From contig JADMIG010000005.1 of assembly GCA_015478725.1 (NCBI GenBank), positions 62,001 to 126,000 of the forward strand: a DNA stretch of 64,000 bases. The letters run 5' to 3'. Every line of letters begins with the position of its first letter. Position 1 is the first letter of the stretch. Shown one piece after another: positions 5,426 to 22,313 of this stretch. The notes under the pieces were generated by a model. The model had not been told where the DNA came from, made no database searches, and was given only the letters and a program-made list of their open reading frames with translations. The stretch is from Chloroflexota bacterium (lineage in GTDB: Bacteria > Chloroflexota > Limnocylindria > Limnocylindrales > CSP1-4). Made by a program: the position numbers and the translations under genes.

Positions 5426-5501
5426 GCGCCCGTAGCTCAGTGGATAGAGCGACTGACTTCGGATCAGTAGGTCGGGGGTTCGAATCCCTCCGGGCGCGCC
5501 A
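5426..5501 (+). tRNA. tRNA-Arg (anticodon TCG), CCA encoded
   Basis: The full cloverleaf can be folded by eye. The acceptor stem GCGCCCG (5426-5432) pairs with CGGGCGC (5491-5497). The D arm is GCTC/GAGC, the anticodon stem ACTGA/TCAGT carries loop CTTCGGA (anticodon TCG), the variable loop is AGGTC, and the T arm is GGGGG TTCGAAT CCCTC. Discriminator G is followed by encoded CCA at 5499-5501. Anticodon TCG reads the CGA/CGN arginine codons. Confidence 0.97.
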
Positions 5502-6522: not shown

Positions 6523-7023
6523 CTATTCGCCGAGCAGCTGGAAATGGACGGTCCGATCGCGCGGGCGGACGGCGTCGAAGTCGACGAAGTAGACGTGACC
6601 GAACTCGCCCAGTTCGATGACTCCATCCACGATCGGGATCGTCTCCGAGCGACCGATCAGAGCGGATCGAATGTGCGCGTCGGTATTCAGACTCCAGACC
6701 GCCTGTTCCCCGAGATCCTGCTCGGCATGCTGGATGTGCTTCGGTCCTGGGTGCAGGTACTGACCCTCGCGTCGGCACGTCGGCACGATCGCTTCGAGGC
6801 GATCCAGCATGTCCTGGAGGAGATACTCCGTGCCGTCGAACAACGTGTCGTGCGATTCCTCCTGGATGATCACGCTGCACGTGGTGTGCTTCGAGTAGAC
6901 GGTGATCGTGCCCATGAGGATCGCGGATCTGGCGACCGCCTCCCGAGCCGCCTCGGTCACATCGTGGAACATCGGCTTGTTGAGGTGGCTGTGAACGTCG
7001 ACGGTGTGGTGATGGACGGTCAT
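6523..7023 (-). CDS. YjbQ family protein (UPF0047, secondary thiamine-phosphate synthase type)
   Basis: A 166-residue protein with the complete YjbQ/UPF0047 pattern. HTTCSVIIQEE occurs near residue 46, a Glu/His-containing middle (HPGPKHIQHAEQDLGEQAVW) follows, then NTDAHIRSALIGRSETIPIV with the closing block on VYFVDFDAVRPRDRTV. E. coli YjbQ has weak thiamine-phosphate synthase activity, but the physiological role of the family is unsettled. Here it is the distal gene of a sugar-catabolic operon, 69 bases after the TPI-like gene. That points to a link with sugar-phosphate metabolism rather than thiamine; this link is inference. Confidence 0.88.
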   Translation of the reverse strand: MTVHHHTVDVHSHLNKPMFHDVTEAAREAVARSAILMGTITVYSKHTTCSVIIQEESHDTLFDGTEYLLQDMLDRLEAIVPTCRREGQYLHPGPKHIQHAEQDLGEQAVWSLNTDAHIRSALIGRSETIPIVDGVIELGEFGHVYFVDFDAVRPRDRTVHFQLLGE

Positions 7024-7092
7024 CTCATCGATCCTCTCATGTGCGACACACGGACTGCCCGATCGCTCCTGCGGTCCGCTGCGGACCGTTCC

Positions 7093-7818
7093 TCATCGGG
7101 CTCCGACGGCCGGATGCGCTCTCATCCAGGCGTGCTGCATGGCGGCGATCATGGCCTGCATCTGGGCGATCGGATCCGCCGCCCTGAGGATGCCGCTCGA
7201 GGACCCGGTCGCACCGACGCCGAGAGCGACCATCTGCGCAACGTCATCGGGCGTCTGGATCCCGGCGCTGCACATGACGATGATCTCGGGATCGATCCGG
7301 CTCACGAGGGCGATGGTTCGCTCGACGAAGCCCCGCATCGCGGTGGCTGCCGAGTGAGCGGCGCCGATCAGCTCAGGCGGCTCGGCAAGGACGATGTTCG
7401 GGCCGAGCTGGGCGACGGCCGCCGCCTCTTCCGGCGAGTCCGCGCAGACCATCGTCGCGAGACCGACCTCATCGGCTCGCCTGATGGCCCGGTGGATCTC
7501 GGCGAGCGTCATCCTCCGTTCCGAGTGGTTGAGCATCGTGCCGACCGCCCCGGCCTCCTTGAGCGCCTCGGGCAGGACGCTTCCTGCTCCGCGGCCCACC
7601 TCCACAGGGTCCATGTGCTGGGCGAACACGAGCAGGTGCCGGGTCTCCCGGGCGATCGCCGGTATGTCCACGTGCTGCGGATCGAAGATGACGGTGACGC
7701 CGTGCTCAAGGCTCAGGCGGTCCGCCTCTTTCGCCAGTCGCACGGCCTCGGCGCCGTAGAGGTAGCCCTTCAGGCCGATCTCGAACACGGGCGCCCTGAG
7801 GCGCGTCAGGTCATGCAT
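7093..7818 (-). CDS. Archaeal-type triose-phosphate isomerase-like protein
   Basis: A 241-residue TIM barrel resembling archaeal triose-phosphate isomerases more than the bacterial TpiA type. Visible catalytic positions are a Lys near residue 17 (GLKGYLYG), His 98 in GTMLNHSERR and Glu 146 in LAEPPELIG. The block VFAQHMDPVEVGRGAGSVLP followed by EALKEAGA is also family-typical, as is a C-terminal phosphate loop with SSGIL. It probably interconverts dihydroxyacetone phosphate and glyceraldehyde 3-phosphate, or a related ketose phosphate, after the aldolase step of this operon. It lies 48 bases after the isomerase gene. A specialised TPI in a catabolic operon suggests the product may be an unusual triose or tetrulose phosphate. 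Confidence 0.82.
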   Translation of the reverse strand: MHDLTRLRAPVFEIGLKGYLYGAEAVRLAKEADRLSLEHGVTVIFDPQHVDIPAIARETRHLLVFAQHMDPVEVGRGAGSVLPEALKEAGAVGTMLNHSERRMTLAEIHRAIRRADEVGLATMVCADSPEEAAAVAQLGPNIVLAEPPELIGAAHSAATAMRGFVERTIALVSRIDPEIIVMCSAGIQTPDDVAQMVALGVGATGSSSGILRAADPIAQMQAMIAAMQHAWMRAHPAVGAR

Positions 7819-7866
7819 CGTGGCCCTCGGCGGGTTTCGCTCCCGCCAACGCAGCCTCGTTCGTGC

Positions 7867-9255
7867 TCAAACGACGACCGCATCGATGCCGAGCATGCGG
7901 GCGAGATGGAGGAGCTGCGCCGTCCATCGCCCTGCCGCCGCGCCCATGTGGTGGGTCGCTCCGGCACGCAACCAGGCGTCGCACCAGCCGGCGATCGGCA
8001 GGGTGTCATGCCTGAACAGGGTCTGAGGGGCGGAGATGGGTCGGGGCGGGAACGGCAGGAGCTGGCCCTCGGAGATGACGAACCGCCACCGTCCGTCACC
8101 CGTCGTGACGAGCGCGAGATTGGTGATCGGGCCGGGCCGGTAGGCGAATTCGAAGCCAGCGCCGAAGCCATGGACACCACGGTAGTAGATCGAGTGCTTG
8201 ACCTTGATCTCGCCGGGTGTGCCGAGGGCCGGGTTCCCGTGGCCGTCGTGCGAGAACATCACCGCCTCGTTGTCGAAGTCGATGACGTAATTCTCGAGGG
8301 TGGTGGCCTGGCCGGCGAGTTCCTGCAGGATCAGCTGCGCAACGGCAGTATTCACATCGCCCTCGGGTGAGGCGGGAATGCCGATCTCGCACAGGCGACC
8401 CGTCCCATACGAGGGGATGATCCCGATCCTCGGATCGCTCAGCCACACCTGGTCGAATGCGGTGAACGCATCGAAGCGGCGCTCCTTCGCCACGGACTCC
8501 AGGGCGAGGGCGAGACGGACGGAGCGCTCGAAGAGGGCGGGCTCCATCTCGACCGCGTACCTGGCCCGCTCCGCCTTCATCGTGGCGTCGACGTCGTCCT
8601 GCGCGATCTCAGCGAATCGTTCGGCGACCTTCTCGGGCTCCAGGGGCCACACGACCGGGCCGATCGCCTGGCGCAGCGAGAGTCCGTCGAACATGAGGTC
8701 CGTCATCCCCTCGAACGGGTGACCGACCAGGGCGATCCGCGCCTCGCGGAGCCGCCGCCGGATGGCGGCCGCCTGGATCACCTCACGGACTCGCCGGCGC
8801 CCGTCCGAATCGTCGAAGCGGGAGGTGACGAGCGCGAACTCACGCCCTGTTCGAACGAGCATCGCCGTGAGCTCGGGCATGCCGGCCATGCCGCTGTTGA
8901 GCATCACCACGTCGAAGCCGTCGTCCTCACCGAGCCGCCCGATCCGCTGGGTGTTCCACACGAGCACCGGGGCGGTGGTGTCGAGGAGACATCGTGCCGG
9001 CACGATGCCCTTCGTGTAGGCGAGTTCCGCGGCGACGATGATGTCGACGTCCTCGGCGTTGAAGCGGCGCGCGGCGGCCGCGGCCTGCTGCTCCTCCTCC
9101 ACCAGGCCCGGGTGGACGACGTCGCCGTATTCGGCCAGCGCGTCGGCGATCTCCTGGGCAGCCGCGGTGGCGGCCGGGCGCATGTGGGCAGTCTTGTTGT
9201 AGTCGTCCTCGAGGAGTGCCGTCACGAGGACGCCGATCTTTGCCTTCACCGCCAC
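7867..9255 (-). CDS. L-fucose/L-arabinose isomerase-like protein (COG2407 type)
   Basis: A 462-residue protein of the fucose/arabinose isomerase fold. Its N-terminal Rossmann-like domain starts KIGVLVTALLEDDYNK, with VVHPGLVEEEQQ and VLVWNTQRIGRL further on. The C-terminal domain has Glu/Asp/His-rich blocks (YVIDFDNEAVMFSHDGHGNP and KHSIYYRGVHG) that could form the Mn site. The likely reaction is aldose to ketose, feeding the adjacent FGGY kinase. I chose GTG 9255, preceded by GGGAGGTG; the longer upstream frame is antisense noise. The sugar cannot be inferred because COG2407 members act on many pentoses and 6-deoxyhexoses. Confidence 0.8.
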   Translation of the reverse strand: MAVKAKIGVLVTALLEDDYNKTAHMRPAATAAAQEIADALAEYGDVVHPGLVEEEQQAAAAARRFNAEDVDIIVAAELAYTKGIVPARCLLDTTAPVLVWNTQRIGRLGEDDGFDVVMLNSGMAGMPELTAMLVRTGREFALVTSRFDDSDGRRRVREVIQAAAIRRRLREARIALVGHPFEGMTDLMFDGLSLRQAIGPVVWPLEPEKVAERFAEIAQDDVDATMKAERARYAVEMEPALFERSVRLALALESVAKERRFDAFTAFDQVWLSDPRIGIIPSYGTGRLCEIGIPASPEGDVNTAVAQLILQELAGQATTLENYVIDFDNEAVMFSHDGHGNPALGTPGEIKVKHSIYYRGVHGFGAGFEFAYRPGPITNLALVTTGDGRWRFVISEGQLLPFPPRPISAPQTLFRHDTLPIAGWCDAWLRAGATHHMGAAAGRWTAQLLHLARMLGIDAVVV

Positions 9256-9304
9256 GGTGCACCTCCCGTTCGTCCGTCCATCAGATCCGTCATGTTGACC
9301 AGGG

Positions 9305-10822
9305 TCAGCCGGCCGCGAAGAGTGGCCGGAGTGCGTCGAAGAGCGCGAGATAGCGAGCGTAGGCGTGATCGTAGGTGCCACGCACGGCCGGGTCGGGCTC
9401 GTAGCGGTCCGCGATCGCAACCATCGCCGCGCTCGCGGCAGCGAGGTCAGGGTAGATCCGGGCGGCCACACCCGCGAGCATCGCATCGCCCCGGATCGCG
9501 GCGTCCTCGCCCTCGAGCGTGACGACGGGGAGCCCGCAGGCGTCCGCCTTGATCCGGTTCCAGAGCGCGCTTCGCGACCCGCCGCCGTGGGAGCGGATCT
9601 CGACGGCCGCGGGTCCCACATCGGCCAGCTGCTCCACGTTGCGTCGGAGCATGAAGGCCACCGCCTCGAGGATCGCCCGCACCAGGTGACCCTTCCCATG
9701 ACGCAGCGTCAGGCCGTAGAAGGCGCCGCGCGCCTCAGGCTCGTACTCCGGGCTGAAGGCGCCCATGAGGTGCGGCAGCATCGTCAGGCCTTCCGCTCCG
9801 GGCGGCACGTCGGCGGCGAGGGCGGTCAGGAGATCGTAGGCGTTGACACCGTCGTGCTTCCCCCGGGCGATCTCTTCGCCACCGAACTGGTCGCGGAACC
9901 ATGTCAGCGCCATCCCGCCGGTCGGGCAGACCGGGCAATACAGGTAGCGATCAGGCGCCGAGTGGATGTAGACCGGCGTTTGCCGCGATCGATCGGCGCC
10001 GTGGCGATCGACCGAGGACTGCAGCGTGAGTGCGCCCCCGGTGCTCTCGGAAACAACCCCCGGACCGATGTTCCCGACCCCGACCGCTCCCGCGCCCTGG
10101 TCCATGCCACCGGCCACCACGAGCACGGTCGCGGGCAGGCCGAGCGCCTCGGCTGCATCCGGAGTGAGCGTGCCGACGACGTCGCCCGGCTCCACGAGCT
10201 CGGGCAGCCGCGCGGGATCGATCCCGACGGCCTCGAGCATCGGGTCCCACCAGCGCCGGGTGCGGATGTCGTAGAGGAGAGAGGTGCACTGGACGCCGCC
10301 CTCCGAGACGAACCGGCCAGTCAGCCGGTGGAGCATGAGTTCCTCGACGAGGAGAAAGCGCGCGGTCGCGGCGAACAGCTCCGGCTCGTGTCGTCGCCAC
10401 CACAGGATCTTGCAGGCGGTCCACGTCGGGACGACGGACGGGACGCCCGTCGCGTCGTAGATCGCCGCGTCCCCGAACCGCTCACCGATCTCGCGCGCCT
10501 CGGCCGCGGCCCGGTTGTCCAGCCAGACGAGCGCGGGGCCCAGGGCCCGGCCACTCGAGTCGACGGGGATCACCGTCTCGCCCTGGCTCGAGACTGCGAG
10601 CGCGGCGACGCCCTCCGGGTCGATCGCGGACGCGGCGAGGGCTCCGCGGATCGCCCTTCTTGTGGCCGTCCAGTAGACCTCCGGGTCGAGCTCGGCCCGA
10701 TCCGGCGCCGGGTGATCGATCCGATACTCCTCGCCGGCCGCAGCCACCTGGCGCCCGGCTGCCTCGAAGATGCCGGCCTTGACCGACGTGGTCCCGATGT
10801 CGAGGCCGATGAGGAGGGACAT
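9305..10822 (-). CDS. FGGY-family carbohydrate kinase (xylulokinase-like)
   Basis: A 505-residue kinase with both FGGY halves. It starts LLIGLDIGTTSVKAGIF (phosphate-1 loop), then has SSQGETVIPVDSSG and LVWLDNRAAAEAREI (sugar-binding region). The second half has VVAGGMDQGAGAVGVGNIGP and the ATP-side signature SHGGGSRSALWNRIKAD. Xylulose, ribulose, rhamnulose, fuculose and autoinducer-2 kinases all belong here. From position it should phosphorylate the ketose made by the neighbouring isomerase. ATG 10822 lies 20 bases after the aldolase stop, and 49 bases separate its stop from the isomerase start, consistent with one transcript. Confidence 0.9.
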   Translation of the reverse strand: MSLLIGLDIGTTSVKAGIFEAAGRQVAAAGEEYRIDHPAPDRAELDPEVYWTATRRAIRGALAASAIDPEGVAALAVSSQGETVIPVDSSGRALGPALVWLDNRAAAEAREIGERFGDAAIYDATGVPSVVPTWTACKILWWRRHEPELFAATARFLLVEELMLHRLTGRFVSEGGVQCTSLLYDIRTRRWWDPMLEAVGIDPARLPELVEPGDVVGTLTPDAAEALGLPATVLVVAGGMDQGAGAVGVGNIGPGVVSESTGGALTLQSSVDRHGADRSRQTPVYIHSAPDRYLYCPVCPTGGMALTWFRDQFGGEEIARGKHDGVNAYDLLTALAADVPPGAEGLTMLPHLMGAFSPEYEPEARGAFYGLTLRHGKGHLVRAILEAVAFMLRRNVEQLADVGPAAVEIRSHGGGSRSALWNRIKADACGLPVVTLEGEDAAIRGDAMLAGVAARIYPDLAAASAAMVAIADRYEPDPAVRGTYDHAYARYLALFDALRPLFAAG

Positions 10823-10841
10823 CGCCGCGTCGGCGCGGCGG

Positions 10842-11657
10842 TCAGCCGAGTCCGTGCTTCGCGGCGGCCACCGCCGGCTCCGCGCCATTCTTGACGACCT
10901 CCTGGAGCGCCTCGAGGAACCGTTCCGGGTCGCGCGCCTGGATGACGTTGCGACCGAAGACGACTCCCCGGGCCCCGTCGCGGACGGCGGTGGCGGCCAG
11001 TTCGAGGGCATCGACTTCGCGGGGCAGCTTCTTCGAGCCGAGCGCGAGGATCGGCACCGGCGTCGAGCGAACGATCTCGGCGAAGCGCTCGCCCGTATGG
11101 AAGGTCTTGACGAGATCCGCCCCCAGCTCGGCGGCGATGCGGCAGCCGATCGAGATCTGCTCGTGGCGCTCCTCCGGCGCCACGTCCTCATGGCCGGCCG
11201 GGTAGACCTCGCCCACGATCGGCACGCCGATCTCACGCTTCTCCGCCACGCACCGCGCGACGAGGGCGACGTTCTCTGCGTCCACCGCCTCCGAACCCGT
11301 CTTGATGGACATCCCGACGAGGACGACGTCCGCGCCGAGGGCGGCCGCCTGGCTGGCCGAGATCATCGGAACGCTGCGGCTCTCGTGGTACCCCCACTGG
11401 GTCGCGTACTGCGTGCCCCAGTTGAGACGGACGATGAGGGCGGGCGATCCGCGGTGCTCGAAGACCGATTGGAGGTGGGGCACCATGCCCGGGCTCATGA
11501 GGATGGCGTCGGCTCCGCGCAGGCGGTCGACGATCGGCCGAAGGTCCTCGAAGCCCGGTCGCGGCCCGTTGTACAGACCGTGATCGATGGCCACGACGAC
11601 GACGTTCTGGCCGCCATCGAAGAGCCGCCGAAGCCTGATCGACTCGCCCGTCGACAC
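10842..11657 (-). CDS. Class I aldolase of the DeoC/FbaB/LacD superfamily
   Basis: A 271-residue TIM barrel with the DhnA/FbaB layout. VVVVAIDHGLYNGPRPG occurs near residues 19-35, GTQYATQWG in the middle, and the presumed Schiff-base lysine is Lys 184 in GADLVKTFHTGE. A phosphate-binding end (ALGSKKLP, then GARGVVFGRNVIQ) closes the barrel. Relatives include class I fructose-bisphosphate aldolase and the LsrF thiolase of autoinducer-2 breakdown. As first gene of the operon it probably cleaves the phosphorylated ketose to a triose phosphate plus an aldehyde. The ATG is preceded by GAAGGAGGGATC. The FGGY kinase plus LsrF-like pairing recalls the lsr system, but the isomerase and TPI argue for a sugar. 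Confidence 0.85.
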   Translation of the reverse strand: MSTGESIRLRRLFDGGQNVVVVAIDHGLYNGPRPGFEDLRPIVDRLRGADAILMSPGMVPHLQSVFEHRGSPALIVRLNWGTQYATQWGYHESRSVPMISASQAAALGADVVLVGMSIKTGSEAVDAENVALVARCVAEKREIGVPIVGEVYPAGHEDVAPEERHEQISIGCRIAAELGADLVKTFHTGERFAEIVRSTPVPILALGSKKLPREVDALELAATAVRDGARGVVFGRNVIQARDPERFLEALQEVVKNGAEPAVAAAKHGLG

Positions 11658-11766
11658 CGAATGATCCCTCCTTCAGGTCGCTGCCACCGATCGGCGATCC
11701 GCCGCCCGTTTCCTGAGGTCTCGACCCAATGGCGTTCACATTCGAGCGGTCGCGCCTCTGTTGGAC

Positions 11767-11843
11767 AGGCTACCACAGGGGTTCTGACCGTCAAGTCAAA
11801 TTGTTCTGATTGACTTCCACTACGCGTTTGTCTATGTTCTGAT
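11767..11843. promoter_or_regulatory. Divergent promoters with phased GTTCTGA repeats and an AAGTCAA/TTGACTT palindrome
   Basis: Plus strand: TTGACT (11810-11815), 17-base spacer, TATGTT (11833-11838). Minus strand: TTGACG (11789-11794), 16-base spacer, TAGCCT (11767-11772). GTTCTGA occurs at 11781, 11803 and 11836, offsets of 22 and 33 bases, so all three lie on one face of the helix. A perfect inverted repeat AAGTCAA-N10-TTGACTT (11793-11816) spans the -35 of the plus promoter. This is the expected design of an operator for the DeoR-type repressors encoded at 16341 and 20536, but which protein binds is inference. Confidence 0.65.
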
Positions 11844-11908
11844 ATGTGCTCGATTGACCAACCACGTGAGCCCAGCGAGCACCAATCAGTCACGCTTGGG
11901 AGGTGAGA

Positions 11909-12061
11909 GTGGAGGCGGCGACGGCCTCGCGAACCCAGTCGGCTCGGCGCATGACGGCCACACTCGAGCGGACGATTGAGCAGGACGACAACCCACGCGC
12001 GGCCGAGAGCGTAGAGGCAGCGCCAAGGGTCCTCGCCCACGTGACTCCGCTTCAAGGCTGA
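11909..12061 (+). CDS. Candidate 50-residue leader ORF upstream of the first ABC cassette
   Basis: GTG 11909 follows a strong GGGAGG ribosome site with 5-base spacing and opens 50 codons ending at TGA 12059. The predicted peptide is Ala/Arg/Glu-rich and hydrophilic, with no signal peptide, and matches nothing I know. It lies wholly inside the 5' leader of the binding-protein gene, 63 bases before that start. It may be a translated leader or simply a chance frame in GC-rich DNA; the ribosome site is the only positive evidence. Confidence 0.35.
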   Translation: MEAATASRTQSARRMTATLERTIEQDDNPRAAESVEAAPRVLAHVTPLQG

Positions 12062-12124
12062 GGTTCCGACACCCGTCGTGCGCAGGCATCGCGTTCTACA
12101 GGCGCAGAACTGAAGGAGGTACCA

Positions 12125-13465
12125 GTGAGACGGCAGAGGCGGGGCAAACTCAGCGTTGGAGTCCTGACGTTGGCGATGCTCGCGGCAGCGTGTGGGTCCG
12201 GATCAACGAGCTCCCCCAGTACGGGCGGAGGAGGCCCAGGAGGATCGCCCAACTCGGGCAAGGTCACCCTTACCCTCTGGCAAAACCTGGGGCAGGGCAA
12301 CCAGGCCCTGGTCGTACCACCCCTCATCGCGGCGTTCGAGAAGACCCATCCGAACATTACGATCAACAACGTCCAGCAGCCGCGCGCGAATTACTTCGCC
12401 CTGCTGTCGGCGGCCGCGATCTCCCAGTCGGGGCCGGATCTCGTCAATATGTGGACCGGTCTGTTCACCATGCAGTACCGCTCCTACCTGACGAATCTGA
12501 AGTCCCTGGTTCCCAGCGCGGACCTCGCCAATGTGACCGGCCTTGAATGGAGTTCCGTTGGCTTCAACGCTCCAGACAGCCCCTATGTCCTTCCCCTGCA
12601 GGTGCAGTTCTACATCGGCTTCTATAACAAGAAGATCTTCAGCCAAGCCGGGATCGCGGCAGCGCCGACCACCTGGAGCGAGCTGACCAGTGATTGCCAG
12701 AAGATCCAGGCTTTGGGCATCACGTGCATCCAGATGGGAACTCAGAACCTCAGCGGCGAATTCTCCCCGTGGTATGACCTCTCCTACCTGATGGCCGGCG
12801 CTTTCTCTCCCACCCAGTGGCAGGACCTGTACAACGGAAAGATCCCGTGGACGGATCCAACCGTCCAGTCGCAGCTCGAGAAGTGGCATCAGCTGTACGT
12901 CGCTGGCTACATCAACAAGGACGCACTGACGGCGACGAACGTCATGAGCCGCTTCATCAATGGTCAGGCGGCCATGATCATCAAGATCAATAACGACGCC
13001 GGCCCCTTCTCCGACGCACTCGGGAGCAACGTCGGGGTCTTCGTTCCCCCGTTCTCGGACACCCCGATGCACAAGGTCGTTGAGTTCGCGGGAAACGGCT
13101 TTGCGATCACCAGCTACTCGCCGAACAAGGCAGCAGCAGCGGAGTTCCTTCGTTTCATGACCACCCCAGAGGCCGGCCAGATCATCGCGCAGGGAGGCCT
13201 GATCCCCGCCGTGAAGGGCGTCGCTGCCACGAACCCGCTCGCCAAGGACATGCTCTCGCTCGTGAGCGACCAGCAGTTCCAGGTGTACCCGATGCTCGAC
13301 AACGTGCTGGCGACGCCGTTTGTCGACGCCGGAAGCAAGGTGCTGCCTTCGCTCCTGGTCGGCGGCACCACGGTCCAAAGCACCACCAGCGGCCTCGTGC
13401 AGACGTGGCAGCAACTCCCGGCCTCGGAGAGAACGCAGAGCTGGGCCGACTATCAAGTTCCCTGA
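12125..13465 (+). CDS. ABC sugar transporter substrate-binding lipoprotein, cassette 1
   Basis: A 446-residue MalE-type (family 1) solute-binding protein. It has a lipoprotein signal peptide with lipobox AAAC (Cys 23), then a Ser/Gly/Thr linker, then VTLTLWQN and the family pattern WSELTSDCQKIQALGI, a GQAAMI block and VVEFAGNGFAITSYSPNKAAAAEFL. It captures a carbohydrate outside the membrane for the permeases that follow. GTG 12125 is preceded by AAGGAGGTACCA. It aligns along its whole length with the binding protein at 17395 (shared NYFALL.AAAIS and GFYNKK.F.QAGI), marking a duplication. Codon third positions look less GC-rich than in cassette 2. Confidence 0.9.
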   Translation: MRRQRRGKLSVGVLTLAMLAAACGSGSTSSPSTGGGGPGGSPNSGKVTLTLWQNLGQGNQALVVPPLIAAFEKTHPNITINNVQQPRANYFALLSAAAISQSGPDLVNMWTGLFTMQYRSYLTNLKSLVPSADLANVTGLEWSSVGFNAPDSPYVLPLQVQFYIGFYNKKIFSQAGIAAAPTTWSELTSDCQKIQALGITCIQMGTQNLSGEFSPWYDLSYLMAGAFSPTQWQDLYNGKIPWTDPTVQSQLEKWHQLYVAGYINKDALTATNVMSRFINGQAAMIIKINNDAGPFSDALGSNVGVFVPPFSDTPMHKVVEFAGNGFAITSYSPNKAAAAEFLRFMTTPEAGQIIAQGGLIPAVKGVAATNPLAKDMLSLVSDQQFQVYPMLDNVLATPFVDAGSKVLPSLLVGGTTVQSTTSGLVQTWQQLPASERTQSWADYQVP

Positions 13466-13492
13466 TCGTTACATTCGGAGTCGAGGCCGGCG

Positions 13493-14551: not shown

Positions 14552-14552
14552 C

Positions 14553-15386
14553 ATGAACGCGCTCATCGACTCGCGGCGGCTTCGATCGAAGGCAGGGCGG
14601 CCCATGATCTTCGTGGTATTGGCCGCCGTCTCCGTCGCCCTCATGTACCCGTTCTACTTCATGCTGCAAACGTCCTTCATGTCGAATTCCCAGTATCTGC
14701 GCGGCAGTGGATTCTCACTGGACAGTTGGGGGGTGCTGTTCCGCAGCGTTCCTGTCGCTCAGGAGATTCTGAACTCGCTGATCCTGTGCGCTTGCGCCAT
14801 CGCAGCCACCCTTGCCCTCGCAACGCCCGCCGGGTTCGCGCTGGCAAAGTTGACGTTTCGTGGGGAGCGTCTGGTCTTCCTCGGGATCGTGGGGAGCATG
14901 ATGATCCCGCTGCAGTCAATCATCATTCCGGAGTACGTGAACTTCGCGCGGCTGCATCTCATCAACACGTACGTAGGCGCGATTCTCGTCTATGTGGCCA
15001 TTGGCACGCCGTTCTCGACGTTCTTGATGGCGACATACTTTCGCGGGCTGCCAGACGAGTTGACGGACGCCGGGCTATGTGACGGGCTGAGCTATTGGGG
15101 CGTCTTTCGGCGGATCGCGCTGCCGCTCGCAGGCCCCGCGCTCGCGACAGTGATCGTGCTGCGATTCATCCCGGTTTGGAACGACTTCCTGATCGGGTTG
15201 CTCTTTCTGCAGGATCCCAACCTCCGACCCCTGACCGTCGGACTGGGTGTGCTCGCCTCGTCGCAGCTCGTGAATGTGCCGGCGCTGATGGCGGGAAGTC
15301 TGCTGAGCACGATCCCGGCGGCCGTAACGTACGTGGTGTTTCAGCGTTACCTGGTGAAGGGGCTGACGCTCGGTTCGTCGCTCTAG
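14553..15386 (+). CDS. ABC sugar transporter permease (MalG/UgpE type), cassette 1
   Basis: A 277-residue inner-membrane permease starting one base after the previous stop, so translation is probably coupled. Helices include FVVLAAVSVALMYPFYFML, and the periplasmic segment GSGFSLDSWG is shared with the homologue at 19692. The EAA loop is diverged (DAGLCDGLSYWGVFRRIALP, with a Cys in place of the usual residue) but keeps the Gly and the I-x-LP end. Neither cassette nor the rest of this locus encodes the ATP-binding subunit, so a shared MsmK/UgpC-type ATPase elsewhere must energise it. Confidence 0.9.
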   Translation: MNALIDSRRLRSKAGRPMIFVVLAAVSVALMYPFYFMLQTSFMSNSQYLRGSGFSLDSWGVLFRSVPVAQEILNSLILCACAIAATLALATPAGFALAKLTFRGERLVFLGIVGSMMIPLQSIIIPEYVNFARLHLINTYVGAILVYVAIGTPFSTFLMATYFRGLPDELTDAGLCDGLSYWGVFRRIALPLAGPALATVIVLRFIPVWNDFLIGLLFLQDPNLRPLTVGLGVLASSQLVNVPALMAGSLLSTIPAAVTYVVFQRYLVKGLTLGSSL

Positions 15387-15456
15387 GGTTGGCGGCGTGG
15401 CGTGCGGAGCGACCGCGCGGACCGAAAATGGCGAGTCGATCTCCAAGGGAGGTTAC

Positions 15457-16209
15457 ATGGGCATCTACCTTCGGGCCGAACCCGGCGCCTATGCGGAGCG
15501 GGTACTCGTCGCCGGCGATCCTGGAAGGATCAGCCGACTGGCGTCGCTGCTGGAAGGGCCAACGCTGGTGACGGACAACCGTGGACTTCTCGGCTACACG
15601 GGACGCTACCGCGGAGAAGCGGTGAGCCTCCAGTGCACCGGCATGGGTTGTCCGAGCATGGCCATGGTCGGAGCAGAGCTGCTCGAGTACGGGGCGCGCA
15701 CCATCGTGAGGATCGGCACCTGCAGCTCGTTCGCCCGAGGAGTGCGAAACGGAGACCTGGTCGTCGTGACTGGGTCCGCCGCCGCGGACGGGACGACGCG
15801 TAGCATGGCTGAGGGAATGCCATTCGTGGCAGTGCCCGACTTCCGCCTCACGAGTGCGCTCGTGGAGGCCGCCCAGAAACGAGGACTACCGACGCATGTC
15901 GGGCCGGTGGTGACCGTGGACGTTGAGCCACACCTTACGACCCTCTCGACGCAGGGTTGGCGTGAACGTGGTCTGCTTGCGGTCGAGATGGAAGCCGCCG
16001 CGCTCTTCTACCTTGCGCTGCGCGCAACGGCCCGTGGGCCACGCCGCGTGGAGGCAGCGTGTGTGCTCACGGTGAGCGATGGCTTGGAAGGACACCCAGA
16101 CGGCCCGCAGCGCTATCTGTCCGACACAGAGCTCGAGGCGGCGACGGACGAGATGCATCTCGTTGCGCTCGATGTGGTCACGGCGCCGACCGTGGCGGTC
16201 ACCTCGTAG
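15457..16209 (+). CDS. Nucleoside phosphorylase (DeoD/Udp-type, NP-I family)
   Basis: A 250-residue NP-I family enzyme. The phosphate-binding GDPGR is at residues 20-24, TGMGCPSMAM near 61-70, VRIGTCSSF near 84-92, and VEMEAAALF supplies the ribose-binding Glu; these are family-diagnostic. It splits a nucleoside with phosphate to a base plus (deoxy)ribose 1-phosphate in the cytoplasm. ATG 15457 follows AAGGGAGGT. Its place between the cassette-1 permeases and the DeoR gene implies that the imported compound is a nucleoside or yields one, which bears on the unknown substrate of the locus. Cassette 2 has no counterpart here. Confidence 0.9.
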   Translation: MGIYLRAEPGAYAERVLVAGDPGRISRLASLLEGPTLVTDNRGLLGYTGRYRGEAVSLQCTGMGCPSMAMVGAELLEYGARTIVRIGTCSSFARGVRNGDLVVVTGSAAADGTTRSMAEGMPFVAVPDFRLTSALVEAAQKRGLPTHVGPVVTVDVEPHLTTLSTQGWRERGLLAVEMEAAALFYLALRATARGPRRVEAACVLTVSDGLEGHPDGPQRYLSDTELEAATDEMHLVALDVVTAPTVAVTS

Positions 16210-16340
16210 CGGGGTCCGGGGATCTCGGCTTCGGACAACGTACCGATTTCGGGTTCGTGCGTGGCTCGTGGAGACGTGATCAGTTCGATGAACGGCAACG
16301 AGAGTGACAGGACGAACGTCGATGGGCGCTGCCCGGAGCA

Positions 16341-17123
16341 GTGGCCGTGACCACGGCACGCGAGCGGCGAGACTTCATCACGCGACTCGTCGAGGAAGCG
16401 GAACACGTCTCCGTCGCGGATCTCACCGAGCGTTTTCGCGTCACCGACACGTCGATACGGCGCGACCTCCGTCTGATCGAGGAACAGGGTCGCCTGAAGC
16501 GTGTCCACGGCGGCGCGGTCGCCATGCCGGGCTCGCCGCGTCTGGGAGTCAACACGGCCAAGGCGCGCGAGCATCTCGCCGAGAAGCGGCGCATCGCGGC
16601 AGCCGCTGCGACGCTCGTCGCTCCCGGGAACGTCGTCCTGTTCGACTCGGGGACCACCGTCGCCCAGGCCGCGGCCCAGATCGCCCGCGGCCTCCGAGTC
16701 GCGAACGCGATCACCGCCGTCACCCACTCGCTTCCGGTCATCCAGGAGATCGGGGCGTGGCCGGAGGCGAACCTCGTCTGCCTCGGCGGGCTGTACCTGC
16801 CCGACTACCAGGCGTTCGTTGGACCGCAGACGCTGTCGAGTCTCCGTGAACTCTCCGCCGACATCGTCTTTCTCGGCTGCGACGGCCTGACGGTAGAGCT
16901 GGGGATCACGACGCCACACGTGCTCGTGGCCGAGGTCGGCGCGATGATGGCGCGCCGCGCCCGCCGCGTTGTGGCGCTGGCCGACTCGTCGAAGCTGACT
17001 CGCTCGGGTTTCACGCCGATCATCCCGCTCAGCGCGGTGGACCTGCTCATCACCGACGACGCCGCAGATCCGGAGAACGTGGCCCGGATCCGGAAGGCCG
17101 GCTGCGAGGTCCTTCTCGCGTGA
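16341..17123 (+). CDS. DeoR-family transcriptional regulator, cassette 1
   Basis: A 260-residue DeoR/GlpR-type repressor. The N-terminal helix-turn-helix is VSVADLTERFRVTDTSIRRD, followed by GRLKRVHGGAV, then a sugar-phosphate-sensing domain with VVLFDSGTTVAQ and FLGCDGLTVELGITTP. Such proteins normally release DNA on binding a phosphorylated sugar intermediate. GTG 16341 was taken; GTG 16347 is also possible. It is a close paralogue of the regulator at 20536. Likely targets are the divergent promoters around 11800 and the promoter at 17244. Confidence 0.92.
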   Translation: MAVTTARERRDFITRLVEEAEHVSVADLTERFRVTDTSIRRDLRLIEEQGRLKRVHGGAVAMPGSPRLGVNTAKAREHLAEKRRIAAAAATLVAPGNVVLFDSGTTVAQAAAQIARGLRVANAITAVTHSLPVIQEIGAWPEANLVCLGGLYLPDYQAFVGPQTLSSLRELSADIVFLGCDGLTVELGITTPHVLVAEVGAMMARRARRVVALADSSKLTRSGFTPIIPLSAVDLLITDDAADPENVARIRKAGCEVLLA

Positions 17124-17243
17124 GCGAGCCGTACACGAGCCCGCCGATCACCGACGCTGCTCCGGACGAACCCGCGCACTGGACCGCGTCACGCCGCAGC
17201 GGCGCGAGACCGGCGCATCATTTGTGTTTCGCATCACTTCGGA

Positions 17244-17272
17244 TTGACGTTCGTTCTTTGCACGGATATAAA
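17244..17272 (+). promoter_or_regulatory. Sigma-70-type promoter of cassette 2
   Basis: TTGACG (17244-17249), 17-base spacer, TATAAA (17267-17272): a close match to the housekeeping consensus, about 120 bases before the binding-protein start. The spacer carries CGTTCTTTG, loosely like the GTTCTGA repeats of cassette 1. The surrounding 17124-17394 is otherwise empty, apart from the GGAGGAAGAG ribosome site of the next gene. Confidence 0.7.
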
Positions 17273-17394
17273 CACATCGAGCAGCCGATGTTGCTCGACA
17301 CACGCGCCCCAGACCATGGCGGTCGGCAACCGTGATGCGCGGACCAACCCCGACTCGCCCCGGGCCAAGGCCCACGGAGGAGGAAGAGAAACCG

Positions 17395-18753
17395 ATGGTG
17401 TACCGAAGGTTCGCCGCCCTGCTGGTCGCCGGCCTCCTCGCCGGCTGCAGCGCGAGTGCCACCCCGACTCCGAGTGCCAACCCGAGTACTGCCGGGTCCG
17501 GGGCACCCTCCGTCACGACCTCGGCGGCGCCATCGGCGTCCCCCACGACGGCGGCCCCGGTCAGCATCACGCTGTGGCAGAACTACGGCACGGAGGCGAA
17601 TGCCCCCGCGACGTACGCGTTCGTCAAGGCCTATGAGGCGCTCCATCCGAACGTGACGATCGATGTCGTCAGCCAACCCGCGGCGAACTACTTCGCGCTG
17701 CTCACCGCCGCGGCGATCTCCAAGACCGGCCCGTGCCTGGCGACGCAATGGACCGGCCTGTTCACGCTCCAGGACAAGAGCTACCTCGAGCCGCTCAACA
17801 ACTACATCCCGATGACCACGCTCAAGCAGTTCAAGGGCATCGAGTGGGGTTCCAACAACTTCAACCCCGACAGCGGCGTCTACGTGGTGCCCTGGGAGAT
17901 GCAGACCTACAACGGGTTCTACAACAAGAAGCTCTTTGCCCAGGCCGGGATCACGTCCCTGCCGACGACGTGGGCCGAGCTGGCCGTGGTCGACCAGAAG
18001 CTCAAGGCTGCCGGGATCCAGCCGTTCGTCTACGGGACCGGGGCCCAGGGGTTGACAGCGGGCTTCTACCCGTACTACGACCTGAGCTACCTGATGATGA
18101 TGATCCCGGTCACGGACTGGCAGAAGCTCTACGACGGCTCGCTGCCCTGGACGGACCCGACGATCCAGGCGCAGCTCGACAAGTGGGTCGCCCTGAAGGC
18201 GAACGGCTACACGAACAAGGATGTTCTCAACGACACGCAATCGTTCCAGCAGTTCCTGGCCGGCAAGGCAGCCATGACCCTCGAGGGAACGTGGGCGATC
18301 TCGGCCGTGGAGAAGGCGATGGGAAGCAACGTCGGCGTCTTCCTCCCGCCATTCGTCGATCAGCCGCTCAAGGGCATCGTCGAGTTCCCGGGTGACGGCT
18401 TCGCGATGACGAACTACTGCCAGCACAAGGATGTCGCCGCGGACTTCCTGAAGTTCCTGGCCGACCCGGCCGCCCAGAAGATCGTCGCAGACGAGGGGCT
18501 CATCCCGTCCGTCCTCGGTTCCTCGGCGAGCGATCCACTGGCCAACGCGCTCCTGAGCTTCGCTGCGACCCAGGGGTACACCCGCTACCCGATGATCGAC
18601 AACGTGATCCAGGGAGAGGTTCAGGCGGTCGGGGCGACGGTCCTCGTTGCGGCTTTCGCCGGAACGATGTCGACGCACGATGCGCTGCAGAAGATGCAGG
18701 ACGCCTTGATGGCGCTTCCGGCCGATCGGCGGTCTTCCTCGGGCTACAAGTAG
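17395..18753 (+). CDS. ABC sugar transporter substrate-binding lipoprotein, cassette 2
   Basis: A 452-residue family-1 solute-binding lipoprotein with lipobox LAGC (Cys 18), a Thr/Pro/Ser linker and the same architecture as the protein at 12125: ITLWQNYG, NYFALLTAAAIS, GFYNKKLFAQAGI, TLEGTWAI and VEFPGDGFAMTNY. I chose ATG 17395, which has GGAGGAAGAG just upstream and starts the signal peptide. A longer frame from 17332 adds only Pro/Glu-rich residues. It binds a related but possibly different carbohydrate from the cassette-1 protein, because the segments around the presumed pocket differ. Confidence 0.92.
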   Translation: MVYRRFAALLVAGLLAGCSASATPTPSANPSTAGSGAPSVTTSAAPSASPTTAAPVSITLWQNYGTEANAPATYAFVKAYEALHPNVTIDVVSQPAANYFALLTAAAISKTGPCLATQWTGLFTLQDKSYLEPLNNYIPMTTLKQFKGIEWGSNNFNPDSGVYVVPWEMQTYNGFYNKKLFAQAGITSLPTTWAELAVVDQKLKAAGIQPFVYGTGAQGLTAGFYPYYDLSYLMMMIPVTDWQKLYDGSLPWTDPTIQAQLDKWVALKANGYTNKDVLNDTQSFQQFLAGKAAMTLEGTWAISAVEKAMGSNVGVFLPPFVDQPLKGIVEFPGDGFAMTNYCQHKDVAADFLKFLADPAAQKIVADEGLIPSVLGSSASDPLANALLSFAATQGYTRYPMIDNVIQGEVQAVGATVLVAAFAGTMSTHDALQKMQDALMALPADRRSSSGYK

Positions 18754-18771
18754 GTCGCCCCTTACGTCACG

Positions 18772-19674
18772 GTGCTCACCCGGCGCGGCCCACGGCCTCG
18801 ACGCTCGCGGCTCGGTTGGTCGCGGCGTCGCGCCGGGTTCCTGTTCTCGCTACCGGTGATCCTGCTGGAGCTCGGCCTCCTGGGTCTGCCGATCCTCCAG
18901 ACGTTCTATTACAGCTTCACGGATTGGAACGGCCAGACGTCCAGCTGGATCGGCCTCGACAACTACGCACGGCTGTTCAACGACTCCACCTTCTGGCAGG
19001 TCCTCGGGAACAATGCCCTGTTGCTGGCATCGATCCCGATTGCCATCGTCATCCCGCTGGCCGTCGCGTTCCTTCTGAACGAGCACGTCACTGGCTGGCG
19101 ATTCTTCCGCTCGGCCTATTTCCTCCCGACCGCGATATCGTGGGTCGTCATCGGCATCGTCGGGATCCGGTTCTTCGCGGCCGAAGGAATCCTCAACGGC
19201 GTTCTGAGGACAGTCGGACTCGGTGGGGTCCAGACAGACCTCCTCTCCAGCGAGGTCGGGGCGATGGTCGCGGTCATCATCACGTTCATCTGGTCCGTCT
19301 TCGGGACGAACACCATCATCTTCATCACCGGGATGGCCACCCTGGACCGGGAGGTGTACGAAGCGGCCCATGTGGATGGCGCGGGGGCCTGGGCGACGCT
19401 CGTCCACGTAACGCTCCCGATGCTCCGCAGGTTCATCCAGTTCGCGTTCATCCTGACGCTCATCACGGCGTTCACCGCGCTGTTCAGCCTGATCTTCGTC
19501 ATGACGAGCGGCGGGCCAGGCTTCGGGACGACGACCCTGGAGTTCTTCGTCTACGAGAAAGCCTTCGCCACGGGCGTCTTCGGCCTGGCCGCAGCGATCG
19601 GCGTCGTCCTGTTCGTCATCGTGTTCGCGATCAGCATCACGCAGCTCCGTCTCTTCCGGAGTCGGGCTGACTAG
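18772..19674 (+). CDS. ABC sugar transporter permease (MalF/UgpA type), cassette 2
   Basis: A 300-residue permease, 18 bases after the binding-protein gene. An Arg-rich N-terminus precedes six helices. Conserved points are FYYSFTDWNGQTSSWIGLDN, FWQVLGNNALLL and an EAA loop EAAHVDGAGAWATLVHVTLP. It pairs with the following permease. GTG 18772 gives the family's usual length, which also suggests the cassette-1 homologue should be shortened. Confidence 0.92.
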   Translation: MLTRRGPRPRRSRLGWSRRRAGFLFSLPVILLELGLLGLPILQTFYYSFTDWNGQTSSWIGLDNYARLFNDSTFWQVLGNNALLLASIPIAIVIPLAVAFLLNEHVTGWRFFRSAYFLPTAISWVVIGIVGIRFFAAEGILNGVLRTVGLGGVQTDLLSSEVGAMVAVIITFIWSVFGTNTIIFITGMATLDREVYEAAHVDGAGAWATLVHVTLPMLRRFIQFAFILTLITAFTALFSLIFVMTSGGPGFGTTTLEFFVYEKAFATGVFGLAAAIGVVLFVIVFAISITQLRLFRSRAD

Positions 19675-19691
19675 GAGGTAGCAGCGCCCAC

Positions 19692-20507
19692 ATGATCCAG
19701 GCCAGGAGGCGGCTCAACCGGACGGCGATCTTCCTCGTGCTCGCCCTGATCGCCGTCGTGATGCTGTTCCCGTTCGCCTTCATGGCCCTGATCGCGAACC
19801 AGTCGTACGACCAGTACCTCGCCGGATCCGGGTTCTCCCTGGACAGCTGGCGGCAGCTCTTCGATACCATCCCGGTCCTTCAGGAGCTGCTCAACTCCGC
19901 CATCGTCACTGCCGGAGCCGTGCTCATCATCCTGGTCGTGAGCTCGATGGGCGGCTTCGCGTTCGCGAAGCTCGGGTATCCCGGCGGGTCGGTCGTCTTC
20001 CTGCTGCTGCTCGCGGGCATGATGGTGCCCGTCCAGTCGATCGTCATACCGGAGTTCGTGAACGTCAGCCAGCTGGGGCTGATCAACCAGTACCCGGGCG
20101 CGATCCTCGTCTACGCGGCGCTCGGGGCGCCGTTCGCGACCTACCTGATGACCACCTATTACCGTGGTGTCCCGACAGAACTCATGGAGGCCTCGCTGAT
20201 GGACGGCGCCTCATACCTGCAGATCTTCGTCCGGGTGATCCTCCCGCTGTCCGTCCCGGCGATCGTCACGATCACCGTCCTGCAGTTCATCCAGATCTGG
20301 GACGACCTGCTGATCGGCCTCCTGTTCCTCCAGACGCCGGACGTCCGGACGATCACGGTCGGGCTGGCGACGCTTCAGAGTGGGCGCATGGTCAACGTCC
20401 CCGTCCTGATGGCCGGGTCCCTGGCGAGCGCGCTGCCGGCGATCATCGTCTACCTCATCTTCCAGCGGCACCTCGTGCGCGGACTCACGATGGGGATCGG
20501 CAAGTGA
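19692..20507 (+). CDS. ABC sugar transporter permease (MalG/UgpE type), cassette 2
   Basis: A 271-residue permease with a strong AGGAGGTAG ribosome site before ATG 19692. Six helices are visible, with AGSGFSLDSWRQLF after the first. The EAA loop EASLMDGASYLQIFVRVILP is better conserved than in cassette 1. It forms the second half of the channel. As in cassette 1 there is no ATPase gene nearby. Confidence 0.92.
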   Translation: MIQARRRLNRTAIFLVLALIAVVMLFPFAFMALIANQSYDQYLAGSGFSLDSWRQLFDTIPVLQELLNSAIVTAGAVLIILVVSSMGGFAFAKLGYPGGSVVFLLLLAGMMVPVQSIVIPEFVNVSQLGLINQYPGAILVYAALGAPFATYLMTTYYRGVPTELMEASLMDGASYLQIFVRVILPLSVPAIVTITVLQFIQIWDDLLIGLLFLQTPDVRTITVGLATLQSGRMVNVPVLMAGSLASALPAIIVYLIFQRHLVRGLTMGIGK

Positions 20508-20535
20508 ACGCCGGCCGACCGGCGGCGATGCGGCC

Positions 20536-21312
20536 GTGACGGCCGCACGAGAGCGCCGTGCCCGGATCGCCGAGCTCGTCGCGGAGTCCGAGGAGGTGGA
20601 GGTCTCCGCGCTCGCTCGACGCTTTGGGGTGACCGACGTCTCGATCCGGCGTGATCTGCTCCTTCTCCAGGGGCAGGGTCGGGTCAAGCGGATCCACGGC
20701 GGTGCGATCGCCCCACACCTCGCCCTGCGCCACGGGGTGTTCGGGACGAAGATCCGCGAGCATCGCGACGAGAAGCGACGCATCGCGGTCGCCGCCGCGG
20801 AACTCATCCATCCCGGCGAAGTCGTCCTGTTCGACTCCGGAACGACCGTCGCCCAGGTCCCGGCCCAGGTGGCGCCCGCGCTTCGGTCAGGGAGCTCGAT
20901 CACCGCGGTGACCCACTCGTTGCGGGTGATCCAGGAGATCGGCTCCTGGGAGGGCCCGCACCTGATCGCCCTCGGCGGCCTGTTCCTCCCCGACTACGAA
21001 GCCTTCGTCGGGCCACAGACGGTGGCGAGCCTCAAGGGCCTCTCGGCGGACCTCGCCTTCCTGGGCTGCGACGGTCTGACCCTCGAGGCGGGGATCACGA
21101 CGCCACACGTCCTGGTTGCCGAGATCGGTGCCACCATGGCCGCTCGCGCCCGGCGGGTGGTCGCCCTGGCCGACGCGTCGAAGCTCGGCCGCTACGGGTT
21201 CACGACCATCGTTCCGCTCAACCAGGTGGATGTGCTCATCACGGACGCCGGGGCCTCGCCGGAGCAGGTCGCCACGATCCGGGCGGCCGGCATCGAAGTG
21301 ATCATCGCTTGA
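20536..21312 (+). CDS. DeoR-family transcriptional regulator, cassette 2
   Basis: A 258-residue DeoR-type repressor closely similar to the protein at 16341. It has the helix-turn-helix VEVSALARRFGVTDVSIRRD, then GRVKRIHGGAI, VVLFDSGTTVAQ, HSLRVIQEIGSW, FVGPQT and FLGCDGLTLEAGITTP. The near-identical recognition helix (VTD.SIRRD) suggests that both regulators read similar operators. Its stop overlaps the TTG start of the mutarotase gene (TTGA), implying translational coupling. The inducer is probably a sugar phosphate from the pathway at 6523-11657. Confidence 0.92.
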   Translation: MTAARERRARIAELVAESEEVEVSALARRFGVTDVSIRRDLLLLQGQGRVKRIHGGAIAPHLALRHGVFGTKIREHRDEKRRIAVAAAELIHPGEVVLFDSGTTVAQVPAQVAPALRSGSSITAVTHSLRVIQEIGSWEGPHLIALGGLFLPDYEAFVGPQTVASLKGLSADLAFLGCDGLTLEAGITTPHVLVAEIGATMAARARRVVALADASKLGRYGFTTIVPLNQVDVLITDAGASPEQVATIRAAGIEVIIA

Positions 21313-22313
21313 GCGCGCGGGTCACGGAGGGATGGAGCGTTCACGACAGCCCGGCGCTGATTCTCGAGAACGCCGCGCTGCGTGTCACGGTGCTGGCCGA
21401 ACTCGGCGGGCACGTGCTCGAGCTCATCGACAAGGCTGCCGACCGGGATCTCCTCTGGGTGAACCCGCGCACGCGACCGCGACGGGCGCCGTACGGAGCG
21501 CACTTCGACGATTGGTGGTCCGGCGGCTGGGATGAGATCTTCCCGACCGGCGATCGGGCAAAGCTTCACGGCGAGGAGCTGCCGTACATGGGCGAGCTCT
21601 GGTCGGTCCCCTGGACGGCGGAGGCTGGCGCGGTGGACGACCGGGCCTGGGTCGCGGCAGCAGGTCTCGCGACGATGGCACCCGCGCGCCTCGAGCGGAC
21701 CCTCGAGCTGCGCGACGACGAGCCCGTCCTTCGGGCCCATTACCGGCTGACGAACCTCGACGTTCGACCCCTTCCCTTCCTGTGGGGCATCCACCCGTCG
21801 TTCGCCATCACGCCTGCCCATCGGATCGACGCACCGGCCAGGGAGATGCGGGTGGGAGTCTCGTCCGGTCCGGCCATGGGCGTCGTCGGGACGACGTACT
21901 CGTGGCCCGCACAGCCGGACCAGACCGCCTCTGGAGGGCTGCGCGACGTCCGGCGGGTCCTGCCCGCGTCCGCCGCGGTCTTCGGCGGCCATTGGGCGAC
22001 GGACCTGGCGGCCGGGTGGCTCGCGTTGACCGACACGTCGGCGCGCCGCGGCATCGCCATCGCCTTCCCCGTCGACGTGTTCCCGCATGCCTGGCTCTGG
22101 CAGGTCTATGGCGGCTGGCGAGGGCACCATCACCTCTGTCTCGAGCCGTGGACCGGATACCCGATGCAGCTCGAGGAGGCCCAGGCAGCGGGTCGGGAGC
22201 GAGTCCTTCAGCCCGGCGAGTCGCTGGAGGCCGACGTCGCCTTTGTCCTCTTCTCCGGGCTCGACGCCGTCGCCGCGGTCGAGCAACGGGGTGACGGCTT
22301 CCTCGTCCGCTGA
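21309..22313 (+). CDS. Aldose 1-epimerase-like protein (mutarotase fold)
   Basis: A 334-residue beta-sandwich protein of the galactose-mutarotase-like superfamily. It opens with a LILENAALRVTVLAELGGHV strand pair, DLLWVNPR, and WWSGGWDEIFPTGD with the active-site-like His in KLHGEELPYMGELW. Then come LWGIHPSFAI (second His) and VDVFPHAWLWQ. It likely interconverts anomers of the imported sugar or acts on a related glycoside. It starts with TTG in a 4-base overlap with the DeoR gene and ends cassette 2. The last 500 bases are overlapped antisense by the long open frame of the ABC-2 permease. Confidence 0.8.
   Translation: MSARVTEGWSVHDSPALILENAALRVTVLAELGGHVLELIDKAADRDLLWVNPRTRPRRAPYGAHFDDWWSGGWDEIFPTGDRAKLHGEELPYMGELWSVPWTAEAGAVDDRAWVAAAGLATMAPARLERTLELRDDEPVLRAHYRLTNLDVRPLPFLWGIHPSFAITPAHRIDAPAREMRVGVSSGPAMGVVGTTYSWPAQPDQTASGGLRDVRRVLPASAAVFGGHWATDLAAGWLALTDTSARRGIAIAFPVDVFPHAWLWQVYGGWRGHHHLCLEPWTGYPMQLEEAQAAGRERVLQPGESLEADVAFVLFSGLDAVAAVEQRGDGFLVR

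Follow-up and report, generated by a model that had tools for sequence, protein, structure and literature searches.

An uncharacterised sugar operon conserved in Limnocylindria, with a divergent triosephosphate isomerase next to YjbQ

Which reactions are served by an operon that combines an aldolase, an FGGY kinase and a sugar isomerase with a second triosephosphate isomerase (TPI) and a YjbQ protein, and what do the last two contribute? The question is raised by a cluster at positions 6523-22313 of a 64,000-nucleotide stretch of a Chloroflexota genome of the class Limnocylindria (assembly GCA_015478725.1, 3.4 Mb; contig JADMIG010000005.1, positions 62,001 to 126,000), hereafter the window, whose numbering is used throughout. 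The operon is real, conserved and uncharacterised, and its pathway logic is familiar: judging from its genes, this set from a soil Chloroflexota most likely takes up a single sugar and cleaves it to small phosphorylated products. One conserved operon here unites five enzymes that have no close characterised relatives, and so defines a new and testable sugar pathway for Limnocylindria, a lineage represented in this analysis by environmental metagenome-assembled genomes (MAGs) only. The part that could surprise specialists is the pairing of YjbQ with the divergent TPI, here named TPI2.

The operon and its core enzymes

The five genes occupy the minus strand from 11657 to 6523, with intergenic gaps of 20-70 bp, in the order aldolase, kinase, isomerase, TPI2, YjbQ; the single operon described in the original prediction is present in full.

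6523-7023, minus strand: YjbQ (UPF0047), the 166-aa long form, which has the motifs HTT, PGPKH and TDAH (PF01894, 91 bits; TIGR00149, 76.8 bits)
7093-7818, minus strand: TPI2, an archaeal-type TPI of a distinct clade (PRK04302, 208.9 bits; alignment; tree)
7867-9255, minus strand: predicted aldose-ketose isomerase of the AraA/FucI superfamily with AraA fold, GTG start (Arabinose_Iso_C, 43 bits; fold; alignment)
9305-10822, minus strand: FGGY carbohydrate kinase, XylB-like (PF00370/PF02782; best PDB match xylulose kinase 2itm)
10842-11657, minus strand: class I aldolase of the DhnA/LsrF/MJ0400 type, DeoC/LacD family (PF01791, 79 bits)
11658-12124, no strand: divergent promoter region between the aldolase and the first sugar-binding protein (intergenic; two TGTTCTGAT sites with 33 bp between them)

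The AlphaFold model of the isomerase (pLDDT 78) resembles L-arabinose isomerases (TM 0.84-0.87) at a sequence identity of 18-20%. When it is aligned with AraA, E298, D328, H336 and H436 fall on the positions of the AraA metal ligands; in a 19-row alignment the second of these is D or E throughout. The protein scores 54.8 bits against the AraA equivalog (cut-off 622) and 53.8 bits against the sulfoquinovose isomerase SftI (cut-off 700). From sequence and model, it is a predicted aldose-ketose isomerase of a new subfamily with the AraA fold; neither score exceeds one tenth of its cut-off, so that these models do not fix its specificity. Distant homologues did not yield a substrate: relatives of 25-30% identity within Limnocylindria adjoin rhamnose-mutarotase-like genes or mixed dehydrogenases, and plasmid-borne ones adjoin unrelated genes and are thus uninformative here.

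The kinase falls just under the cut-off of XylB (TIGR01312, 338.4 bits for 380.25) and well short of that of LsrK (237 bits for 528). Nearest to the aldolase are MJ0400 (2qjg, E=2e-29) and LsrF (E=2e-24); its scores stay below the cut-offs of PRK07226 (174 bits for 241) and of LsrF (134 bits for 297), and it keeps the Schiff-base lysine motif VKTFH and the GRN phosphate loop. Together, these three families make a route from aldose to ketose, then to ketose phosphate, and finally to dihydroxyacetone phosphate (DHAP) and an aldehyde. Their assignments thus support the sugar route proposed from the sequence at first sight, and the accompanying statement that no standard pathway fits holds as well, as isomerase, kinase and aldolase all lie below equivalog cut-offs. 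No operon protein has a curated equivalog-level match except YjbQ, which belongs to a hypothetical equivalog; the PRK04302 match of TPI2 is at subfamily level. No characterised orthologue was found in PDB, NCBIfam or the papers searched, so that the case that would have refuted the claimed novelty, close orthologues shown to use a common sugar in the same gene order, did not arise. Routes of the L-fucose, L-rhamnose and D-arabinose type likewise group an aldose isomerase, an FGGY kinase and an aldolase with a transporter in a single inducible operon; here, however, the isomerase has an AraA fold and is neither a RhaA nor a FucI equivalog, the kinase is XylB-like, the aldolase is a DhnA class I enzyme and not a class II enzyme, and TPI2 and YjbQ come in addition.

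Orthologues of the isomerase (74-91% identical) are found in MAGs labelled Chloroflexi, Candidatus Limnocylindrales and Candidatus Dormiibacterota, and 22 of the 177 genomes of the window's class carry one at an identity of at least 78%. The gene order is shared with about 20 other genomes (isomerase identity 78-91%), so that the arrangement is not due to chance. Gene calling on 32 loci, some of which are duplicate views of one genome, delineates a fixed core in which a sugar-binding protein (SBP2), two permeases, a DeoR regulator and a mutarotase-like protein diverge from the aldolase-kinase-isomerase genes, usually followed by TPI and YjbQ. Dormibacterota keep this core as well. Wherever a Limnocylindria locus is long enough, these three enzyme genes adjoin the transporter, DeoR and mutarotase genes.

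The reactions proposed here, each inferred from the gene content, conservation, linkage and catalytic residues observed, would start with the uptake of one free monosaccharide by an ATP-binding cassette (ABC) importer (SBP2 and two permeases, with an ATPase shared from elsewhere), and the mutarotase-like protein would equilibrate its anomers. The AraA-fold, metal-dependent isomerase would convert the aldose into a ketose, the XylB-like kinase would phosphorylate the latter, the DhnA-type Schiff-base aldolase would split the ketose phosphate into DHAP and an aldehyde, and the DeoR proteins would respond to a phosphorylated intermediate.

TPI2 and YjbQ

Both proteins exceed the cut-offs of their families (132 bits for PRK04302, 67.75 bits for TIGR00149). 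A canonical TPI is encoded elsewhere in the genome (257.7 bits to PF00121, versus 69.9 for TPI2), whereas the YjbQ of the operon is the sole UPF0047 protein. TPI2 keeps the active-site Lys, His and Glu of TPIs, but its loop 8 reads TGSSSG instead of VLLASG; in the alignment its relatives retain these three residues too and share a TG-x-[ST]-S loop, whereas archaeal TPIs have VLLAS or similar. The TPI of Pyrococcus (1HG3) has the same fold family and the same three catalytic residues (195 bits) and differs in loop 8 motif, operon context and clade: a maximum-likelihood tree of 21 rows, with one long branch, separates the TPI2 clade from archaeal TPIs at 100/99. Given the canonical TPI, the separate clade and the altered loop 8, TPI2 is not an ordinary housekeeping archaeal TPI, and with a canonical enzyme in the same genome extra TPI activity is not needed. 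The operon's "own archaeal-type TPI", as it was first called, does match the archaeal family PRK04302, yet it belongs to a distinct clade that is found with YjbQ in several bacterial phyla. In that tree the Chloroflexota copies are not monophyletic, which suggests horizontal transfer.

TPI2 relatives were sought in Chloroflexota genomes and on plasmids, and bacterial ones were found on plasmids of Shinella, Enterococcus and Lacticaseibacillus. Each of the four regions opened (in Shinella, E. faecium, E. raffinosus and L. paracasei) has a long YjbQ as the next gene after TPI2, and in other Shinella and E. raffinosus records the coordinates of the two matches are also adjacent. The Shinella H4-D48 plasmid cluster has TPI2 (53% identical to that of the window) followed by YjbQ (49%) and a XylB-like FGGY kinase (34%), as here, but a short-chain dehydrogenase/reductase (SDR) and a ketose-epimerase-like protein replace the isomerase, the DhnA aldolase is absent and the transporters are other; a DhaK-type kinase is also among the neighbours. 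The Enterococcus and Lacticaseibacillus operons (L095, L096, L099) resemble the window in having an aldolase, then TPI2 and YjbQ; they differ in a class II aldolase, with phosphotransferase system (PTS) import in E. faecium and L. paracasei (L095, L096), and in having no free-sugar isomerase or kinase. Since the pair recurs in several bacterial phyla, TPI2 and YjbQ constitute a module of their own. TPI2 is absent from two other regions opened, one in E. faecium (L114) and one in L. paracasei (L115), where YjbQ lies in a PTS operon with ribulose-phosphate 3-epimerase (Rpe) and 6-phospho-3-hexuloisomerase (HxlB). Plasmids of E. faecium often carry the long form of YjbQ.

The pair also follows the operon within Limnocylindria. 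Of the 22 genomes with the isomerase, 18 have a long YjbQ, and the 155 others of the class have none, apart from one unrelated short YjbQ (Fisher 4e-21, not corrected for phylogeny). TPI2 is present in 19 of the 22, and all nine TPI2 matches in a 400-genome sample of the phylum come from genomes that also carry the isomerase. In three genomes (G056, G072 and G073; loci L044, L039 and L054) the pair is absent, and a zinc-dependent alcohol dehydrogenase (Zn-ADH) and a class III aminotransferase directly follow the isomerase, accompanied by an MtnX-like phosphatase of the HAD family. No close homologue of this aminotransferase occurs in the 41 other genomes tested. The two gene sets replace each other cleanly at a single place in the operon; G072 and G073 belong to one genus, which leaves about two independent cases.

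What, then, would the pair do? UPF0047 proteins are present in E. coli, B. subtilis, cyanobacteria and archaea, and so far only weak, secondary activities have been assigned to this widespread family. A 2021 review classes yjbQ as of unknown function and records that its overexpression rescues a pdxB mutant of E. coli along a path not yet resolved (PMC7954711), which would fit an action on small phosphorylated sugars. No literature on the function of YjbQ with a TPI or in Enterococcus PTS operons was found. In the erythritol operon of Brucella, the TPI paralogue EryH (TpiA2) and EryI (RpiB) isomerise tetrulose phosphate to erythrose 4-phosphate (PMC5992420). By analogy, TPI2 would relocate the carbonyl beside the carbon that bears the phosphate, the reaction that EryH performs with tetrulose phosphates, and YjbQ would carry out the partner isomerisation, in the slot that RpiB holds in erythritol operons. 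The erythritol-like layout, the company that YjbQ keeps with isomerases and epimerases (TPI2, Rpe, HxlB) and the pdxB rescue make us prefer such a sugar-phosphate isomerising module to a redundant TPI; this is the least certain part of our proposal, and we put it forward tentatively. A wider version, which we consider rather unlikely, would make TPI2 and long YjbQ an unrecognised, horizontally spread isomerisation module that plugs into unrelated pathways, with TPI2 as a carbonyl-shifting ketose-phosphate isomerase and YjbQ as a non-homologous stand-in for RpiB, exchangeable in Limnocylindria for a dehydrogenase and an aminotransferase. The strict pairing of YjbQ with a divergent TPI across sugar operons points to a candidate substrate class (sugar phosphates) and a partner that can be put to the test, and could settle the role of the family.

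Taken as a whole, an inducible monosaccharide catabolic operon with an isomerising TPI2-YjbQ module is an explanation to which we lean by a little. Several points weigh against it. The aldolase should already yield DHAP, so that it is hard to see where a tetrulose- or ketose-phosphate isomerase would act; TPI2, with its intact active site, may be a plain TPI; and the exchange in three genomes is left unaccounted for. YjbQ is also reported to have a thiamine-phosphate synthase activity, low and secondary (Morett 2008, cited in PMC11551756); no thiamine genes were seen beside YjbQ, whose linkage is to the sugar operon. Finally, no characterised close homologue of any operon enzyme was found in PDB, NCBIfam or the papers searched.

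Rival readings of the pathway

The best surviving alternative keeps the sugar route and makes TPI2 a dedicated enzyme for the conversion of DHAP into glyceraldehyde 3-phosphate, with YjbQ in an accessory and unrelated role. The conserved catalytic residues and the DHAP expected from the aldolase speak for it, and duplicate glycolytic genes are possible in sugar operons; on the other hand, the genome already has its canonical TPI, the TPI2 clade is distinct with a long stem, TPI2 is paired with YjbQ wherever a region was opened, and the core of the Shinella cluster has no aldolase. We regard this reading as doubtful.

Less probable still is that the substrates are amino- or otherwise substituted sugars, from which an aminotransferase and a dehydrogenase would strip the substituent before the core route. 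Besides the Zn-ADH and aminotransferase that follow the isomerase in three genomes, four relatives (L036:16263-18540, L041, L044, L038) have an SDR and a class III aminotransferase within the transporter operon, inserted after DeoR and before the mutarotase. Subdoligranulum variabile (L116) also has adjacent genes for an aldolase, an FGGY kinase (39% identical) and an AraA-like isomerase; unlike here, its aldolase is of class II, and a class III aminotransferase and a Gfo/Idh-like oxidoreductase surround the three genes in place of TPI2 and YjbQ. However, class III aminotransferases are a broad family, and the window's own cluster has none.

An erythritol-type pathway for a tetritol or tetrose, ending in erythrose 4-phosphate, appears improbable. 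The Brucella operon (EryA, EryB, EryC, EryH, EryI) does share with the window a TPI paralogue and a second isomerase downstream of an FGGY kinase, together with DeoR regulation (PMC5992420), and the Shinella TPI2-YjbQ cluster has an SDR, a ketose-epimerase-like protein and a DhaK-type kinase. Yet YjbQ stands here where Brucella has RpiB, no EryB dehydrogenase, EryC, RpiB or other alditol dehydrogenase was identified in the window's cluster, and the conserved aldose isomerase and aldolase would be superfluous for a tetritol route.

The original prediction saw in the nucleoside phosphorylase (PNP) between the transporter cassettes a hint of a nucleoside-derived sugar. A (modified) nucleoside would then be imported and split, and its sugar would enter the operon. 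The PNP has intact motifs, and one relative has the end of an adenosine deaminase gene next to that for the mutarotase. This hint was not borne out: the PNP cassette was seen in only two of the 22 operon-bearing genomes (the window and G068), and the other loci have the core without it. Phosphorolysis gives a sugar 1-phosphate and thus requires neither a free-sugar isomerase nor a ketokinase, and MalE-type binding proteins usually bind saccharides. We consider this origin very improbable; from its distribution, the PNP cassette is accessory and no guide to the substrate of the core.

Sulfoglycolysis of the sulfo-EMP (Embden-Meyerhof-Parnas) type and the lsr pathway for autoinducer 2 (AI-2) are hardly credible despite the distant likeness of the isomerase to SftI and of the aldolase and kinase to LsrF and LsrK, as all these scores are far under their cut-offs, lsr requires no aldose isomerase, and no sulfoquinovosidase, sulfolactaldehyde enzyme, DUF4867 protein or LsrG-like open reading frame was identified in the cluster.

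Transport, regulation and surrounding genes

The plus-strand set (12125-22313) diverges from the operon and includes two DeoR regulators, which the original prediction had omitted.

12125-13465, plus strand: SBP1, family-1 sugar-binding lipoprotein (PF01547)
13493-15386, plus strand: cassette 1 permeases (13493-14551 and 14553-15386; PF00528)
15397-16209, plus strand: DeoD-type PNP (PF01048, 121 bits; GDPGR, MEAA and SDG motifs)
16341-17123, plus strand: DeoR1 regulator (PF00455, PF08220)
17237-17272, plus strand: SBP2 promoter (TTCGGATTGACG, 17-bp spacer, TATAAA)
17332-18753, plus strand: SBP2, binding protein of the conserved core (PF01547; kept in relatives)
18772-20507, plus strand: cassette 2 permeases (18772-19674 and 19692-20507; PF00528)
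20536-21312, plus strand: DeoR2 regulator (PF00455)
21309-22313, plus strand: mutarotase-like protein, aldose-1-epimerase/DUF4432 superfamily (sub-threshold Pfam; fold match, low-confidence model)

The genes of the two divergent ABC cassettes, with phosphorylase and mutarotase, are thus where they had been predicted, but neither cassette contains an ATPase gene; eight MsmK/UgpC-like ATPases are encoded, all elsewhere in the genome. The transporters are indeed duplicated, and the duplication is old, as the binding proteins are 44% identical, the permeases 51 and 54%, and DeoR1 and DeoR2 67%. At the SBP2 promoter TTCGGATTGACG overlaps the -35 box, and it is also found upstream of transporter operons in several relatives; it may be a DeoR operator. 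When further regulon members were sought with the promoter motif TTCGGATTGACGNNCG, the SBP2 site alone was a perfect match, and the near matches may be background. The PNP scores 153 bits to PRK05819, under the cut-off of 230, with its key motifs kept. For the mutarotase-like protein, Pfam scores lie under their cut-offs (28.9 for 32.5, and 26.8 for 27 with aldose 1-epimerase), whereas the best fold matches of the predicted model (pLDDT 67) are galactose mutarotases, and this model is too poor for active-site claims.

Further genes accompany the operon elsewhere. In Dormibacterota and in a single genome of the Chloroflexota, an M24 peptidase-like gene diverges from that for the aldolase (L077:1325-2500, L079:6052-7266), and a gene of the Indigoidine_A family (pseudouridine-5'-phosphate glycosidase-like) lies near the operon in some relatives (L036:2590-3576, L037, L038). 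Two Rubrobacter plasmids (L097, L119) carry another uncharacterised cluster, in which an FGGY kinase and a DhnA-type aldolase occur with transketolase, a DhaK-type kinase, HAD hydrolases, sn-glycerol-1-phosphate dehydrogenase and rpiB. In the window itself, GC content is 63-69% over 6-24 kb versus about 69-74% in most of the remainder, which suggests acquired DNA. A tRNA-Arg (tcg) gene lies at 5426-5501, beside the left end of the cluster, and an Acyltransferase-3 protein with a fused SGNH domain is encoded at 2742-5102.

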